64,000 bases of DNA, taken from NCBI RefSeq assembly GCF_921293095.1, contig NC_060251.1, positions 41,087,644-41,151,643 of the forward strand. The letters run 5' to 3'. This DNA is from Ischnura elegans. Taxonomy: Eukaryota; Arthropoda; Insecta; Odonata; Coenagrionidae. Position numbers and translations under genes: made by a program. Positions 2,731 to 50,188 of the stretch are shown piece by piece. The notes beneath the pieces are model-generated. The model was not told where the DNA came from, searched no databases, and worked only from the letters and a program-made list of their open reading frames with translations. Numbering within the stretch: the first letter of the stretch is position 1; each line of letters begins with the position of its first letter.

Positions 2731-4460
2731 TAGAGCCAGAGTGATCGCAAAGGTAAACAAATTGAGCGCAACCACAGAGATTCGTGGGTTTCAAACCCCC
2801 CCCACGATATGTCTGGGAGAGACTGGGTCTTGGGAGTATCCCCTCCAAAAATTTAACACCACCGCAATTTCCACCCACCCCCTTCCGAATTTTTTTTCTG
2901 TCTACGGTCCTGAGATAGTGGAACTTTATAATGCGCAGGAATGCCAGTACATTAGATTGTACTTTGATTTTCAAATAATCCACACTTACTAGTTTTTGAA
3001 GTCCAATTAAACTGCGCGAGACTGCATCTGACGCTTCGTAGCAAACACAGAAAATTAATGGCCTAATAAGTGAGCCTGAATTATCTCCCCCTCCCCCTTG
3101 ATCTCCGGAATTTTGAGACGAAATTAGTATTGAATTAGCTAATAATTTGTAAAAAAAAAATAATAAGAAAGCAATCGCACCGCATTAAAATTGAAAAAAG
3201 TAAATTATCAGACAGAGTTGATCAATATCAATGCATTGCTAAGCAAGTAACGACAACAAAGAGAGATAATAAATTGTGAGAAGATGAGCCCCAAAAAGTT
3301 CTTGAAACACCAATACTCTAAAATCGCTCCAGTTGAATAATTTAGTTTAGAAATGATATTTAATGGCACAAGGCAGCTGATATTGCAAATTCTATTCACA
3401 ACTATGTTAAATTTTTTACCGGGTGCAGTCTTTAGCAATCCCCCCAAAAAACGATTTCTGGCTATGCCTTGCATCGAAAAACAGAAATTGAGAAATAAAA
3501 GAAAAAAATGCAGTCCATCAAACATATTTACAACAAAGGAGTACTGGTAAAGAGGTGGGCAGAAAGATAATTTGATTTCCATCCCATGAGCCCTGGCTCA
3601 AAACCAGAATACAATGAAAGTGTTTTGTGGATGATATATGATTCCAACTTGTGCTACAGGCACAGCACTTTAAGAACTCAAATTATCAGTCCCTCAGATC
3701 AGACCTTTATCCCTTTCTTCCTGCTGTGTTTGTTTACAGTAGTTCAATGTCAAGATTGGTCTGTACCCTTGTAATACATCAATGACATCAATTATGAAAA
3801 CAAGCTACGAGTGAGTTTATGAATGTACTATTGAACCAGAGCCTCAAGTCACAGTACAAAGAATTCATAAAATTGAAATCCATAAACACCTATCCGCTTT
3901 ATTATCTTGTGAAGAGAAATAGCTGCAAAACTTACAAGGGTGATAATAGGGGTAAAATTTCTTGGCTTGGGGAGCAGGAATTTTAGGGTAGCATTGGTGT
4001 ATGGACAACTTTCATTCCAGGATATGCAATATACATACATACTATGCTCTGAGGCCTGGTCTGACTTTTGATACCCCTCAGTAACAGAAGGATTAACAAA
4101 ATACGGGCTGGTTTTCCATGCACGGGAAGGCTTATCCTATCGTAACACATCTGGTGCTCTTAGGATTAATAATCCATAGTGTCCCCAAGATATAAATATT
4201 ACTTGGAAATAATACCACAAATTATAAGAGTCCCAGGTAATTGGTCAAAATTTAAATCCCTGCCCAGCATCAAAAGTTTTAGTCGTATTGTTAGAGCTAG
4301 TCTGGTAGAACTAAAATTCCTAGGATGAAATAACTGCTACACCTTTTCCCATACCCTGGCCATGGGCTGACAATGAAAATTACTAGATAGTAGGTTAATG
4401 TTGAACGCTCAACGTTTAATCTCAAATGCTGTTTAAAAAATGTCCAATTTAATTAAAATA
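2731..4460. other. Intergenic DNA downstream of the TMEM242-like gene
   Basis: Holds one copy of a diverged dispersed repeat (3781-4010). No other gene or element end was recognised. Confidence 0.35.
3781..4010. repeat. Dispersed repeat, copy A
   Basis: Shares long interrupted matches with 7650-7920 in the same orientation (for example GAGTGAGTTTAT, TTGAACCAGA, CCTCAAGTCAC, TCTTGTGA). Family unknown. Confidence 0.55.
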
Positions 4461-44108: not shown

Positions 44109-45327
44109 TACAAGGTTTTAATGGCTTATTTAGAAACTTAACTGACCTGACATTTTAAAAATTTTTCGTCGGCAGCTGTTGGCTGCCCTGGCGAAAAAGA
44201 ATGGTAACATTTGTGTAACCTAATGGTAACTTTTGAGTGTACCATTAGTGTAGGAAAATGGTAAACTCTGTGAAGGCTGTGTGTAACCATAGTGTACATA
44301 GTTATAACTCCAGTGTACAATCTGTGTAACTTTGTGGTAAAGTGGCCCAATCTGTGTAGGTTTTGTGTGTAACTTGTGTAACAATTGGCGCTGAATTGTG
44401 TACAGTGAGTACAGAGTCTGCAGTGGTACATGATGTGTACATGATGTACACTATAGTACCATTTAGTACACAGGTGTACAATAATGGTAATAAGGGTACC
44501 ATGCAATTAGGATTAAAATTAAAAACATAAATGCAGGAATGTTTAAACATCAATATTTATTGCTGTTTGAAGAAGAACTATAAATCATCAATTGTTGCCT
44601 CCTCTACTCCCTCTTGATGATCTTGATAGTTCCTGTTAAATGAAAAAGTAAAATTAAGAACATTTGTCAAGCAAAATTTATAACTTGATAAAATGGACAA
44701 AAATTTGGTTTAATGCATAACATTACACTTTCTGTCAAAACAATCTTTCTTTTTTTTTAATGAAATGAAACAGTGGTTGAGAGAACCTTATTTTTCACAA
44801 CATTTTCATAAATAACAACCCCTTAAGTTACTGCTCTTATTTATTTTACCTCATACCATGTTGATTCCAGCCAACTTATATTAAGCCAATAGGTAAAATA
44901 AAATTTGAAGTAACTTACGAAGCCAGGCTCCTGAGATTTTCTTCTTCCCCAAGCCAGTGTTATGTCTTCCATTTAAATCGCTGGCCAGCTTTGACAACAT
45001 GGTCATCACCTCTGAGGACTTTTGTGCAACCATTAATCAAACTCATTTGGTTATTAACAGAAAAATAAATTCTAGTAATTTTATGCATTTATGTTATCAC
45101 AACTCTATTTATTTTCTAACAAAATTTTAAAAGAAGCCACACTAATAAACAGCTTCAGAATACTTCCACAAATATATCAAATTTAGAAAATTTAATATTG
45201 TTATTCAATATAACTTAAAAGTTAAAACACCAATTGACATAATGTGGGAAAATTACTTACACACTAATGCTACAAAGAAGTGAGAACTGCACTACTGATT
45301 AGGATGATCAATATGATGGCCTTTCTT

Positions 45328-45988
45328 CTAGGCATCCCTAAATTTGTCATGTCTAAGCCAATGCTTTGTGTAATTTTCTAATTCCTTAGATGAAGCACTT
45401 AGGTGATAAAGTCGAACTGCATCTGTAAAAGAAGGGGTATTCTCTATGACAATGATATCAACAACATGTAGTCCAATTAACCATCATAGGTAATTTATAA
45501 AATTTTTGAAGGATCAATTTATATGGAAAATAAGGAAGAGATATGTTAGACAATAACTTATGTAGTGGGGATGAAGAGCTTAATAAGAAATAAGTCTAAC
45601 TGAAGAAAGGGATAATGTTTTTTGGGGCGTTTTCACAAAGAAATATCCTTTTGATTTAGAATTACCTCAGATAGTATCTCTCCTCTAATGATGAAAAAAT
45701 GTAATATAAAACTTACCAAAAATTATTGTTTTCAGGCCAAGCTCAGAAAATACTCTTTTATTTTTGTAGCCTATCCAGCTATAGTTGGCTTCCAAGATGT
45801 CATTCATGACATACCGGATAGTTCGTTAAAATCATTTATTTAGAAGTGTTGCCTCCAATTAGGGCCAACTCGGAAATCTGCAATGAAATTAACAAAGTAT
45901 ATACATTGTAATCTTCATTTTCAAAGGTAGATGCGTCAAGTCTTTCACAGAATTGTAAATATTCATGATGATAATATTTTATAGGAAT
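45328..45988 (-). pseudogene. DUF4806-like domain gene, decayed
   Basis: One segment at 45988-45717 reads IPIKYYHHEYLQFCERLDAS, then ISELALIGGNTSK. After stops and a frame change it gives NDILEANYSWIGYKNKRVFS and ELGLKTIIF before donor G|GTAAGT. It joins in phase to an exon at 45422-45328 (acceptor TTTACAG|ATGC) reading AVRLYHLSASSKELENYTKH, then WLRHDKFRDA and TAG. This order (P-I-K, IGG, YSWxG, WLRH) is that of the DUF4806 domain common in insect uncharacterised proteins. Function unknown; at least two stops make it a pseudogene. Upstream exons may lie beyond the Helitron. Confidence 0.6.
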
Positions 45989-46649
45989 CTGTCGCATGAG
46001 ACATTTTGTATAACAATAGTTTCACCAGCATTATTGCCAGCATCTTCAGGTCTTATTGACAATTCAGTTATGTCCTGTTATGTACACTGCATTCACAAAC
46101 TGACATCTATATATATAAAAGAAAGTCGAAAATCGTGTTAGTTAGAACACTTATAACTCGAGAACGGCTGCACCGATTTCAATGAGATTTGGTTCTTTGG
46201 ATTCGTCTCAGGCGGGGTTAACATATAGGCTATTAAAAAAAGAATAATTTCACAAAAAATATTCATCTCTTTCCTATGGACATGCTTTTAGGAGTTATAG
46301 TAACACAACAATTGATAAGTCGGTCAAAACTACAAATTAAATAATTTGTTTTGTTTTTACCACTTTAATAACTGAATTTAGTAACAATATAACATTTTAA
46401 TTACTAAATATATTCAAAATATTAATTAAATTGAAATTACATTTTTTAAATTTAATTCGAGCTGATTGTAAGCCCAGCCGTGGCCCAGCTCGAGTTGACA
46501 CTTCACTACCGTGTTTGTAAACAAATCTCCAAGCAATTGTTGACAAACGGTAATGTCCGTGTTCCGAATCAAAGATGGTTGATTTAGCGAGCAAGAACGA
46601 AGATGTGGATGACTAAAACGAGGTAAATTCAAATAGTTCGTACTCTGCA

Positions 46650-47530
46650 TGGATTCGAATCTTTTAAATGTGTAACAAACGAAGACGAAATCACCAACTA
46701 TCTATCTAAATATTTTAAGTCCTTGGACATACCTGGCTTACCAAGGCACGATTTACAGAAAAATGTAGTTTCTGTGCTCATGATATTTCGAAGCCTGAAC
46801 CAACCATAACTATCCAACGGAACGTGTGTGATCATTAAAAAATTGGTGATGAATGTGATTCACGCAACTTTACTCAAAGGAAAATTCAAAGGTTAGGAAG
46901 TCCTCATTCCGTAGATTCCATGATCTCAACTCATATGCCCTTTTGAGCTTAAACGTATCCAATTTCAAATTCGTCATGCATTCGTGATAACGATTAAAAA
47001 ATCGCATGGTCATTCTTTCAGTTTTTGTGTTGTTTGTGATCATGTGCTAATGAAAACCCATGATTTTCTCATGGTCAATTTAGCGTGCTATGTTCACGAG
47101 TCGATAAACCATCCTCTGTATTTCTTCCTTCGCTTCAAGTGCGTAGCTAGGATAGGGAGTTTTGGGCGCAGCTAATACCACGGGTCTGTAGGGTATAGAA
47201 AACTCGCTAAGGTAAGCGGGAAGTGTGGGGGCACTTCCCCCAGACATTTTTTAAGATAAATGGTTCAAAATAGTGGGTTTTGTGGCTGTGTGAATAGTTA
47301 AATATGTTTTGTTTGTTAGTCATCCGTCCCCCTAATATTAATAACAAAATCTTTCATAAAATAATTCTCTAAGCTCTTGGGGGGGGGGGGGGGGGTTTAT
47401 CCCCCAAAGCCTCCCCTCGCTGCGTCACTGCTTTGCTTCGCTATATTTATTTAGCTTCATCCGCTTCATCTTGCGCCTGATACAAAACAAAAACTGTTGT
47501 TTATCAGAAGGTGCTTGACGCAAGACATTA
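46650..47530 (+). pseudogene. Helitron helicase C-terminus, broken
   Basis: Fragments in order: YLSKYFKSLDIPGLPRHDLQ; VLMIFRSLNQP followed by a stop, then LSNGTCVIIKKLVMNVIHAT; FELKRIQFQIRHAFVITIKK and SHGHS. A diverged copy of the CFSHGQLYVACSRV region follows, and after the MITE at 47136-47430 comes KTVVYQKVLDARH. These track Pif1-type domain VI of RepHel proteins. The Rep domain and most helicase motifs are absent. Confidence 0.78.
47136..47430. mobile_element. GC-rich hAT-type MITE inside the Helitron
   Basis: Left GTGCGTAGCTAGG, right CTCGCTGCGTCACTG, flanked by CTTCGCTT (47128-47135) and CTTTGCTT (47431-47438), 7 of 8 bases. Internal 16-G tract near 47380. Same family as 50970-51289 and 54404-54686. 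Confidence 0.7.
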
Positions 47531-48127
47531 AACCCGAATGTGTAGGGCTCACCGTGGTGCGTTTACGCATGCAGTACGTTTACGCAGTGCATTTTTTCCC
47601 AATAGAGATACTAAAACTGGCGCGCCTTAAGTCATTTAATGCGAATGCTGCTTCATAGGGGCTTTTCTTGCACGATTTTGAGCATCAGTCAAGCGTCGGT
47701 CTGGGGTTGTGTCAACCTGCCCTCTGAAAGGGCCAAGTGTATGCAACAGACGTGGACCTAAGAACATTTTTTTACAGCTAATAACGCAAATAGCCAACAA
47801 CTGAATGCGTATAATTTTTATTTCATAAACTGCTTTATTAAACCACAATGCCCAAAATTTCTTAAGCCAAAACGTAAGAAAATTTGTTGAAAAAAATCCG
47901 CGTAAACGTGCTCCGATCCACCCCATGTAGATTCAATAAAGAAAATGTCTTTCTGACAAGCAATTTTGGTACTCATTTACGTAGTTTTATTGAATTTGTA
48001 TCCTTATTTTATTATAATAAATTAAACATGATTAAAAACGATACAGCCGCTCTTGATTTATAAATGGTGTAAGTAAACTGTAAGTTCATTTATTGTTAGG
48101 CGGTACGAAGTTCGCCGGGTCAGCTAG

Positions 48128-49160
48128 TCCAATATATAAACCAGTTGAAATATTATTTTCCGAAGATATTATTTCTGCCCCAATTCCAACTTCTACTGAA
48201 ATTGCCAGCAAATTGTGAAAATTGATAACATTATAACTCTTTATGACTTTCATTGCAATTTAGGCATTCGTAAAAAATGTACTGAAGCACAAATCAATAC
48301 CTAAATGATAATGATCGGAGAGAGTTAAATTGATGGCTGTGTTTTGAACAGCTTATTAATTATTATAATTCTTCGACGTATTTCCAATGGTTATAAATTT
48401 TCAAGAAAAAACTCTTCGTATACGATTTAATTGAGATTGAGGCTGATACTTTAATGCCATAACTAACTGCTAACAAAGTGGATTCTTCTGCGAGAACCCT
48501 GATATTTCCACTTAATCGGTCTGAATGGATTGTATTTTTACTATGGCCGCGAAAGCAAAGATCATGCTAAATTGTAATTAAACTGTGAACATAGTAATTA
48601 ATAATCTTAAATACTTATTGGAATGAAATTAGCGGTTCATTAATCGTATTAGTACATACGAAAGATTACATGCACAACCTCGGTGATTTACTAACGAATA
48701 GAAAAAATGTTCCATTTACTTACATTTACATGGTCAGCTCAGCAGATATGTGTTGATGCTGACAAGGATATATTCTTATATATCTCTTCGTGCCGCTAGG
48801 ATCCACTTTACCCGGTAATTCAGTACACAGAAACAGACAGGAACTTAATCCGGCGTCGATTTAAAAAGTCCCTGAAATGGTATTCTACCAATTCCTTTTT
48901 GCCAGTCTTCATTGCGAAACACGGATTATTTACTTCTTCCATTGCGTACTTCAACGTAAATTTGCTTGTAAAATAAGATTCTACAGCATAGCTTAATTCG
49001 CAAAGTCACAAAATACAGTAGCTGCGAATGTTTCAGCGCGACGGCTGTTGGGACATGGTATGCAAGATGGCCGCCGGTCGCTTTGGCCTTAGGCGCAAGT
49101 TTCAAAATACGATATTTAATCCTTTATATTAAAAAATAATAATTGCATAATATAATGGTA
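48128..49160. other. Interior of the 5.26-kb element right of the Helitron
   Basis: On the minus strand 48920-48810 has an open stretch beginning MEEVNNPCFAMKTGKKELVE that could be a further exon of the decayed gene. No similarity recognised; stops follow. Confidence 0.25.
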
Positions 49161-49448
49161 TCGCGACACAGTGGTAAAACTGTGATGACATTTGTGTCCC
49201 CAAAAATAGTGATTGATGTGTATATATTGAGTACACTTATGGTGCATGAATAGACTGGTAACTTAGTGGTACGATCTGTGTAACATCTGATGCATCACAT
49301 TGAGTACGGCTGTGGTATCAATGATGTACAGGATGTACAGACTGTACGATTTGTGTAACTTTGTGAGTAGAAAAGTGTAGTAAATGTGTAATTTTACATA
49401 ATATACCATATTTTTACACATATTTGTTACACAGATTTTTCGCCAGGG

Positions 49449-50188
49449 TGCAGGTCGGCCCGACATCAAACCAACATTGGAATGACGTCCAACTTACACT
49501 GGCCTGACATCAAGCCGGCATAGGTCTGACATGAAACCCGATATTGCAATTTAAAAAAATGAGTGTGATATCACACTTTACAAATATATACATAGATATA
49601 TCTTTAGCAGGCTTTATCATAGATTTATGGTGACACGTTCCAACCTCTATGATATCGATCATCAAGATAGAAAAATGAGTTTGGACATATCGCATCCACA
49701 AGCAAAAATTTTCAACAGTCTCAAACTGAAAAAAATGGGGTCCCTAGTGCAGATTTTCTCGAATATTTGGAGATTGCTACATATTAAGGGAAGAAGATAT
49801 TAATGGCAATTTTTATGCTGTATAATTCGCAGTATTTTTTTCAATGAATGACAACCTTTCATGAAAACTACGTTTTACATCAGAATTCACACTTTTGTTT
49901 AATCCTCTCCTACTTCAAATGGTGCTACTCGGCGTATTTAAGAAAGTCTTTGGCTTCTTCCAGTATTGCAGATTGATGTTTCTTGTTGATGCATTTCCTT
50001 CATTGAGGAAATCAGTGGACTGGAAGAGAGGAGCAGCCATCTGACTAGATTGACTATCGTATCTTTCTTATAGAAGAATTAGAGAAATAAATGTGTTATA
50101 ATTTACGAAATACTGGTTCCAGAGTACCAAATTGTCGCACAAATTATAAATAGTGGTTTGAAAATTCATCCGGCACATTTCCAAGCTT
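49449..50188. other. Intergenic DNA, nothing recognised
   Basis: The first 110 bp holds a short array of GACATCAAxC/GACGTCCAAC-type motifs; the rest is AT-rich with no gene. Confidence 0.35.

Follow-up and report, generated by a model that had tools for sequence, protein, structure and literature searches.

A putative non-autonomous TRC-type CACTA transposon of Ischnura elegans with a decayed DUF4806-related gene in an interior shared with a second family

We analysed a 64,000-nucleotide stretch of the Ischnura elegans genome (C6:41087644-41151643, here called the window), in which positions 44186-49448 hold an element with terminal inverted repeats (TIRs) and exons resembling the DUF4806 domain, and searched the whole 1.72-Gb genome for its relatives. 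A first-pass annotation had described a mobile TIR element of 5.26 kb belonging to no standard family. The explanation that best accounts for the observations as a whole, and which we consider very probable, is that it belongs to a young non-autonomous family of TRC elements that is mobilised in trans and has exchanged its interior for one with a dead DUF4806 gene, and that a Helitron-like insert entered the window copy afterwards. In what follows, family A is the window family, family B a second family, and L-numbers are individual loci read out of the genome.

From its sequence, the element is best classed as a non-autonomous TRC-type CACTA (En/Spm, CMC) transposon whose own transposase is lost, because the ends beginning with CCC, the 2-bp duplications and the Transposase_21 domain were all found. 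The available part of DeMarco et al. 2006 (PMC1636069) describes, from animals and fungi, TRC elements that belong to the CACTA (En/Spm) superfamily and have Transposase_21 and 2-bp duplications, and gives ends starting with CCC in a schistosome (SmTRC1, Schistosoma mansoni), Tribolium castaneum and Aedes aegypti. Likewise, Spongebob / EnSpm-4N1_HM is assigned to the TRC elements in the part of PMC4298943 at hand, with CCC ends, 2-bp duplications and non-autonomous copies in insects. The family is new, within a known transposon group, and the initial statement that no standard family fits is not borne out, since animal TRC/CACTA elements have just such CCC ends, 2-bp duplications and, as in the longer relatives, Transposase_21.

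Both TIRs of the window copy begin with CCC, as in TRC elements. Each is an exact 13-bp sequence, CCCTGGCGAAAAA at 44186-44198 and its reverse complement at 49436-49448, with one occurrence within the window. They are bordered by a 2-bp target duplication, TG/TG (44184-44185 and 49449-49450), whereas the first-pass annotation had seen no clear duplication there. Both flanks were read for 16 copies (the window copy, L009-L018, L019/L020, L021/L022, L062 and two elements on C13), and in 14 of them a 2-bp duplication of no fixed sequence was found, again as in TRC elements.

The Transposase_21 domain is absent from the window copy but lies between the same ends in the two full-length C13 elements. 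One of them (C13:3203233-3212627) is 9,395 bp long, is bounded by the two 13-bp ends and has a TC/TC duplication; the other (C13:17954466-17965465) measures 11,000 bp, including an insert resembling a long terminal repeat (LTR) element, and also has both ends. Each contains an 804-aa stop-free frame on the plus strand (97% identical between the two) and a second, multi-exon gene on the minus strand. In L066, the second C13 element, the first Met of the frame is at residue 56 and the match to Transposase_21 scores 43.1 bits (cut-off 28.6). Both frames were found by the Transposase_21 profile, which has 39 matches in the genome. A third transposase copy (C9:15203737-15205500) is broken and has a right end next to it, at C9:15207493. 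The NCBIfam search with the transposase and with an exon of L071, a family B locus, returned no matches.

Moreover, the end searches yielded a divergent copy on C7 (L062, 5,098 bp), which keeps the left ~840 bp of the family (interrupted by ~1.5 kb) and the right ~300 bp at 89-95% identity. What it has in common with family A is thus consensus 1-840 and 2952-3247, whereas its interior differs and contains another gene, with several exons on the minus strand according to our own exon model. This gene matches two more places on C13, each of which adjoins a Transposase_21 match. It has no Pfam match over the cut-off and only weak ones below (Peptidase_M26_N, 0.012; Baculo_PEP_C, 0.11), and when 117 aa from the second gene of the autonomous element were compared with PDB sequences, no match was returned.

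Some further observations concern these relatives. The insertion in the C13:17954466 element (L065:394-2697) begins and ends with direct repeats, contains an open reading frame (ORF) of 391 aa and is LTR-type by look. A genome search for TRC transposases listed 58 matches (56 of 522 candidates scored). Among them, TRC-type transposases are diverse, many being 28-42% identical to that of L066, and 27 of the 58 fall on C13, C14, C16 and C17.

The copy number of family A was examined through its ends. The bare 13-mer has 309 genome matches against 9 for the reversed control, but it turned out to be non-specific and was dropped as a family marker, as six one-ended places (L023-L028) are without a family-like continuation. 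At L023, long ORFs are present, but the end of that stretch does not match family A. Part of the 309 matches is explained because another dispersed repeat contains CCCTGGCGAAAAATCAGAC, or nearly so; this repeat, in which the motif is internal and the flanks are conserved, was seen in L026, L027, L028 and L064 (reverse complement, ~2478). A 23-base pattern for both ends gave 80 matches (78 exact to one end, 2 with one base different) and none in the control. These form 32 facing pairs and 16 single ends, which upholds the mobile TIR element. In 15 of the 32 pairs the ends lie 3,225-3,249 bp apart, so that the boundaries recur in other copies, at a shorter length than the initial 5.26 kb, which includes a nested insert. 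Longer TIR pairs of 8.9-13.4 kb (L016, L019/L020, L021/L022) had been candidates for autonomous elements and were rejected, being 3.24-kb copies with insertions. The family is young; its consensus, made from nine copies, is 3,247 bp long, and the copies are 99.1-99.6% identical to this majority consensus.

Against the consensus, the 5,263 bp of the window copy resolve into an element proper of 3,241 bp and a nested insert of 2,022 bp. The exact ends of the first-pass annotation therefore stand, and its length does not. The insert starts with TC, ends with a hairpin (by eye) and CTAG, and lies between A and T without a duplication, which are the marks of a Helitron; it is absent from the ~3.24-kb copies, and we regard it as a Helitron-like insertion on these sequence features. 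A run of 17 G at 47379-47395 is located within it. The features of the window copy are as follows.

44184-44185, no strand: left copy of the target-site duplication (TG), from the reading of the flanks
44186-44198, plus strand: left 13-bp TIR, CCCTGGCGAAAAA, exact and occurring once in the window
44186-44505, plus strand: left subterminal region with a GTGTA/GGTAAC cluster mostly in plus sense, from consensus counts and the best 40 of 59 left ends
44581-44637, minus strand: approximate extent of a last-exon remnant from the gene of the autonomous element itself, with the same reading in L062 and in the consensus
44935-45030, minus strand: remnant of the penultimate exon of that gene (SAEVMTMLSKLA.DLNG), from the match at C6:41132578-41132673
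45037-49156, minus strand: interior module (consensus 854-2955; approximate limits) with the Helitron-like insert within it, 82-85% identical to L059-L061
45331-45438, minus strand: DUF4806-gene remnant, exon of the WLRH stretch, from the match at C6:41132974-41133081
45717-45877, minus strand: core exon of the DUF4806-gene remnant, with stops in each frame and with IGG and YSWIG out of frame with one another, homologous to a 160-nt exon that is unbroken in L071 and L064
45908-45997, minus strand: upstream exon of the DUF4806-gene remnant (IPIK...FCERLDASTFENEDY), from the consensus translation, its limits approximate
46106-48127, plus strand: nested Helitron-like insert of 2,022 bp, flanked by A and T and running from TC to a hairpin and CTAG, extra relative to the consensus
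49157-49448, plus strand: right subterminal region with a motif cluster, common to the autonomous elements (93-95% identity to L066 and L062)
49436-49448, minus strand: right 13-bp TIR, exact and occurring once in the window
49449-49450, no strand: right copy of the target-site duplication (TG), from the reading of the flanks

The subterminal motifs were counted on the family consensus, divided into the left 320 bp, the right 302 bp and an interior of 2,625 bp; the similarity search for ends covered the best 40 of 59 left and the best 40 of 57 right candidates. On the plus strand, GTGTA occurs 13 times at the left, 5 times at the right and once in the interior, and on the other strand 2, 3 and 4 times, respectively. 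Taken together, GTGTA and GGTAA reach 18 at the left and 7 at the right, whereas 2000 base shuffles of each end averaged 1.1 and 1.0 and never exceeded 6. The proposed clusters of same-strand motifs are thus real at both ends; the strand bias, however, is evident in the left cluster but weak in the right one. In maize En/Spm, the subterminal repeats are bound by a TnpA-type protein.

The minus-strand gene proposed in the first pass is recognisable by its pattern (IPIK, IGG, YSWIG, WLRH) but cannot be read through, as its core exon has stops in every frame and IGG and YSWIG stand in different frames. The core exon is broken, with no stop-free frame, in 31 of 31 family A copies, a count that leaves out L038 and L040, from which the exon could not be cut out; its length is 161 nt in 24 copies, 165 nt in 5 and 158 nt in 2. 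In family B, the exon of L059-L061 is 159 nt long and has one stop-free frame, with the IGG motif in another frame, and that of L071 is whole, at 160 nt as in L064, with stops in the neighbouring exons. The whole DUF4806 gene is present in no family copy read. We had considered a lesion common to both families and dropped it, because exon lengths and lesions differ and the L071 exon is whole.

The Pfam check divided in the same way. With hmmscan, the three minus-strand frames of 44184-46000 (stops as X) had no Pfam match. Among seven joined-exon queries, two matched DUF4806 at 13.9 and 12.5 bits (cut-off 25), one matched FBA_2 (0.1) only and four matched nothing. The L071 core exon alone reached 16.6 bits over 43 of the 90 positions of DUF4806, its sole Pfam match and again under the cut-off; the gathering cut-off of 25 bits (PF16064) was reached by none of the exons scored from either family. 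It is passed by L064, a multi-exon gene at C13:4602500-4607000 with exons open where read, two of which, when joined, gave 37.7 bits. The core exons of L071 and L064 are 50% identical over 52 aa, gap-free, and both 160 nt long. Given that L064 passes the cut-off and that the unbroken L071 exon is 50% identical to it and of the same length, the relationship between the exons of the element and DUF4806 is genuine. In family A they are probably passengers without a coding role.

The interior of family A also occurs in family B. L059, L060 and L061 match the consensus over 854-2665, 854-2955 and 854-2818, respectively, at 82-85% identity (L061 with an additional 121-bp piece, consensus 2837-2955, at 81%), that is, in an interior of ~2.1 kb only and not at the ends. 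The ends of family B, read fully in L060, are CCCTAGTAGCAATTGATATC...GATATCGATTGCTACTAGGG, and this copy also shows a CA/CA duplication and clustered ATATCC/GGATAT motifs; the 20-bp family B end of the CCCTAGTAGCAAT type has 55 genome matches and none in the control. Family B is TRC-like, judging from its ends, a single duplication and a single transposase match near an end. That match lies in L072 (C4:51058884-51065089), about 5-6 kb inside a family B end, where the outer 331/401 bp read match the family; this locus may be an autonomous element of family B.

The 3.24-kb element therefore looks like a chimera, with ends from its own autonomous type and an interior in common with family B, since L062 has the ends without the interior and L059-L061 have the interior without the ends. 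The left junction contains ~14 bp that come from neither parent, and at the right one a few bases are common to both. The left ~840 bp and the right ~300 bp of the autonomous type are kept, with the ~2.1-kb module in place of its interior. Because of these junctions, the gain of the interior may be attributed to faulty gap repair (template switching) after excision. The Transposase_21 protein of the autonomous type would move the element in trans, by recognising the ends and the subterminal repeats, cutting and pasting, and leaving 2-bp duplications; the window copy would have received its Helitron-like insert later.

Some points weigh against this history. The interior differs by 15-18% between the families compared to ~1% among family A copies, and its donor may have been either family or a third source. 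Two of the 16 flank-read copies, L010 and C13:17954466, are without a 2-bp duplication. For the window copy no empty site was found, the joined flanks returning the two halves of the window itself and 39 partial matches to a dispersed repeat (best 40 of 1,358). Finally, C13:3203233-3212627 was read at its ends and protein matches only.

Other explanations were weighed against the one above. A new superfamily of DNA transposons might be suggested by inverted ends that do not start with CACTA and by the lack of a transposase in the window copy taken alone, but the same ends enclose Transposase_21 in two longer copies, and CCC ends with 2-bp duplications already characterise a published animal group (PMC1636069, in its available part), so that we give this idea hardly any credence. 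The interior could also be a separate mobile unit that inserted independently in both families, given that the same ~2.1-kb stretch lies within two otherwise unrelated families. By eye, and with no systematic search, its borders are without an inverted repeat, a target duplication or a Helitron-type end. Moreover, 146 exon matches, obtained by tblastn with exon queries (used instead of the PF16064 profile, which had no matches in this genome and likewise none in a control genome), cluster into 85 loci, of which 43 have a family A end no more than 13 kb away and 24 have a family B end no more than 17 kb away, these limits being our own choice. The remaining 18 are near neither; four of them, at 61-85% identity to the query, look like eroded copies, and 14, at 41-57%, are other DUF4806 genes or remnants. 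With 67 of 85 exon loci near family ends, a separate mobile unit is very improbable.

The remaining rival takes the DUF4806 gene for an ancient functional component of TRC elements, a TnpA counterpart of BEN type that acted on the subterminal repeats and decayed in both families. Both families that have the module also have TRC-like ends, its gene in family A is oriented as the second gene of the autonomous element, one family B copy (L071) keeps the core exon whole at the length found in L064, and the lesions differ between the families, so that an exon in their common ancestor may have been intact. Moreover, DUF4806 is called a subtype of BEN DNA-binding domains in the available part of PMC11075544, which cites Pan et al. 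2023. On the other hand, the gene of the autonomous-type L062 has no Pfam match over the cut-off, and around the 58 TRC transposase matches listed, a distance of 20 kb takes in none of the 92 DUF4806 matches. In the comparison with the 39 Transposase_21 matches, C13:1864839 (family A) is 6 kb from one, which is outside the ends of that copy, and the other loci compared are more than 20 kb away. The transposase near a family B end at C4:51058884/51065070 likewise has no DUF4806 match nearby among the matches listed. Overall, we regard an ancestral TnpA-like role as unlikely. The broader proposal that TRC elements swap interiors and ends as modules, one of which encoded a BEN-type (DUF4806) counterpart of TnpA, is a decidedly doubtful one; if it were true, part of the DUF4806 gene family would be transposon-derived.

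Returning to the young, trans-mobilised family with a swapped interior, these findings indicate that TRC elements multiplied dead DUF4806 exons in this genome. Of the 85 exon loci, 67 are near family A or B ends. The first-pass suggestion that mobilisation explains the abundance of DUF4806 holds here for dead exons only, with 31 of 31 family A copies read broken and the 92 DUF4806 matches distant from the TRC transposase matches listed. No close source gene for the fragment was found among the matches listed, the best outside the two families being 57% identical. DUF4806-like exons with near-equal scores were also observed at C2:147366290, C3:1369339, C10:147473, C4:949222, C4:133593479, C6:556766 and C19:118771619/120789297/122812629, several of them within about 1.4 Mb of a contig end, which suggests a separately multiplied, perhaps subtelomeric gene.

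An apparently unassigned element is hereby placed, with its autonomous partners, target duplication and nested insert identified. CACTA elements can multiply a gene for a DNA-binding domain (DUF4806, BEN subtype) as dead exons, and such copies can inflate domain counts in animal genomes without new working genes. In the matching break points of their common interior, two CACTA families offer a tangible example of module exchange, and it is this swap between two TRC-like families that deserves the attention of specialists. In the titles and abstract openings of the literature searched, a CACTA element with BEN/DUF4806 cargo is not reported; PMC5704228 was rejected as a precedent, since in its available part 'BEN domain', 'transposon' and 'CACTA' stand in unrelated places.

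Compared to known systems, the family shares with the TRC elements, as given in the available part of PMC1636069, the ends starting with CCC, the 2-bp duplications and Transposase_21 in a full-length element. The TRC end of T. castaneum given there, CCCTAGTAGCACC..., even has its first 11 bases in common with family B (CCCTAGTAGCAAT). Unlike those elements, the window copy is without a transposase and holds a decayed DUF4806 gene, the family A end past CCCT is its own (GGCGAAAAA), and its autonomous relatives carry another, separate gene on the opposite strand. Spongebob / EnSpm-4N1_HM resembles it in CCC ends, 2-bp duplications and TRC assignment, but has another end sequence, and a DUF4806 gene is unmentioned in the parts of PMC4298943 consulted. 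DUF4806 genes (PF16064) proper share the core exon, which is homologous to that of L064, whereas in family A it is broken in every copy counted. Finally, the plant Pack-CACTA / Pack-TYPE elements, as presented in the available part of PMC8903248, are also non-autonomous DNA transposons with gene fragments; in I. elegans, the element is of TRC type and the fragment is common to two transposon families.

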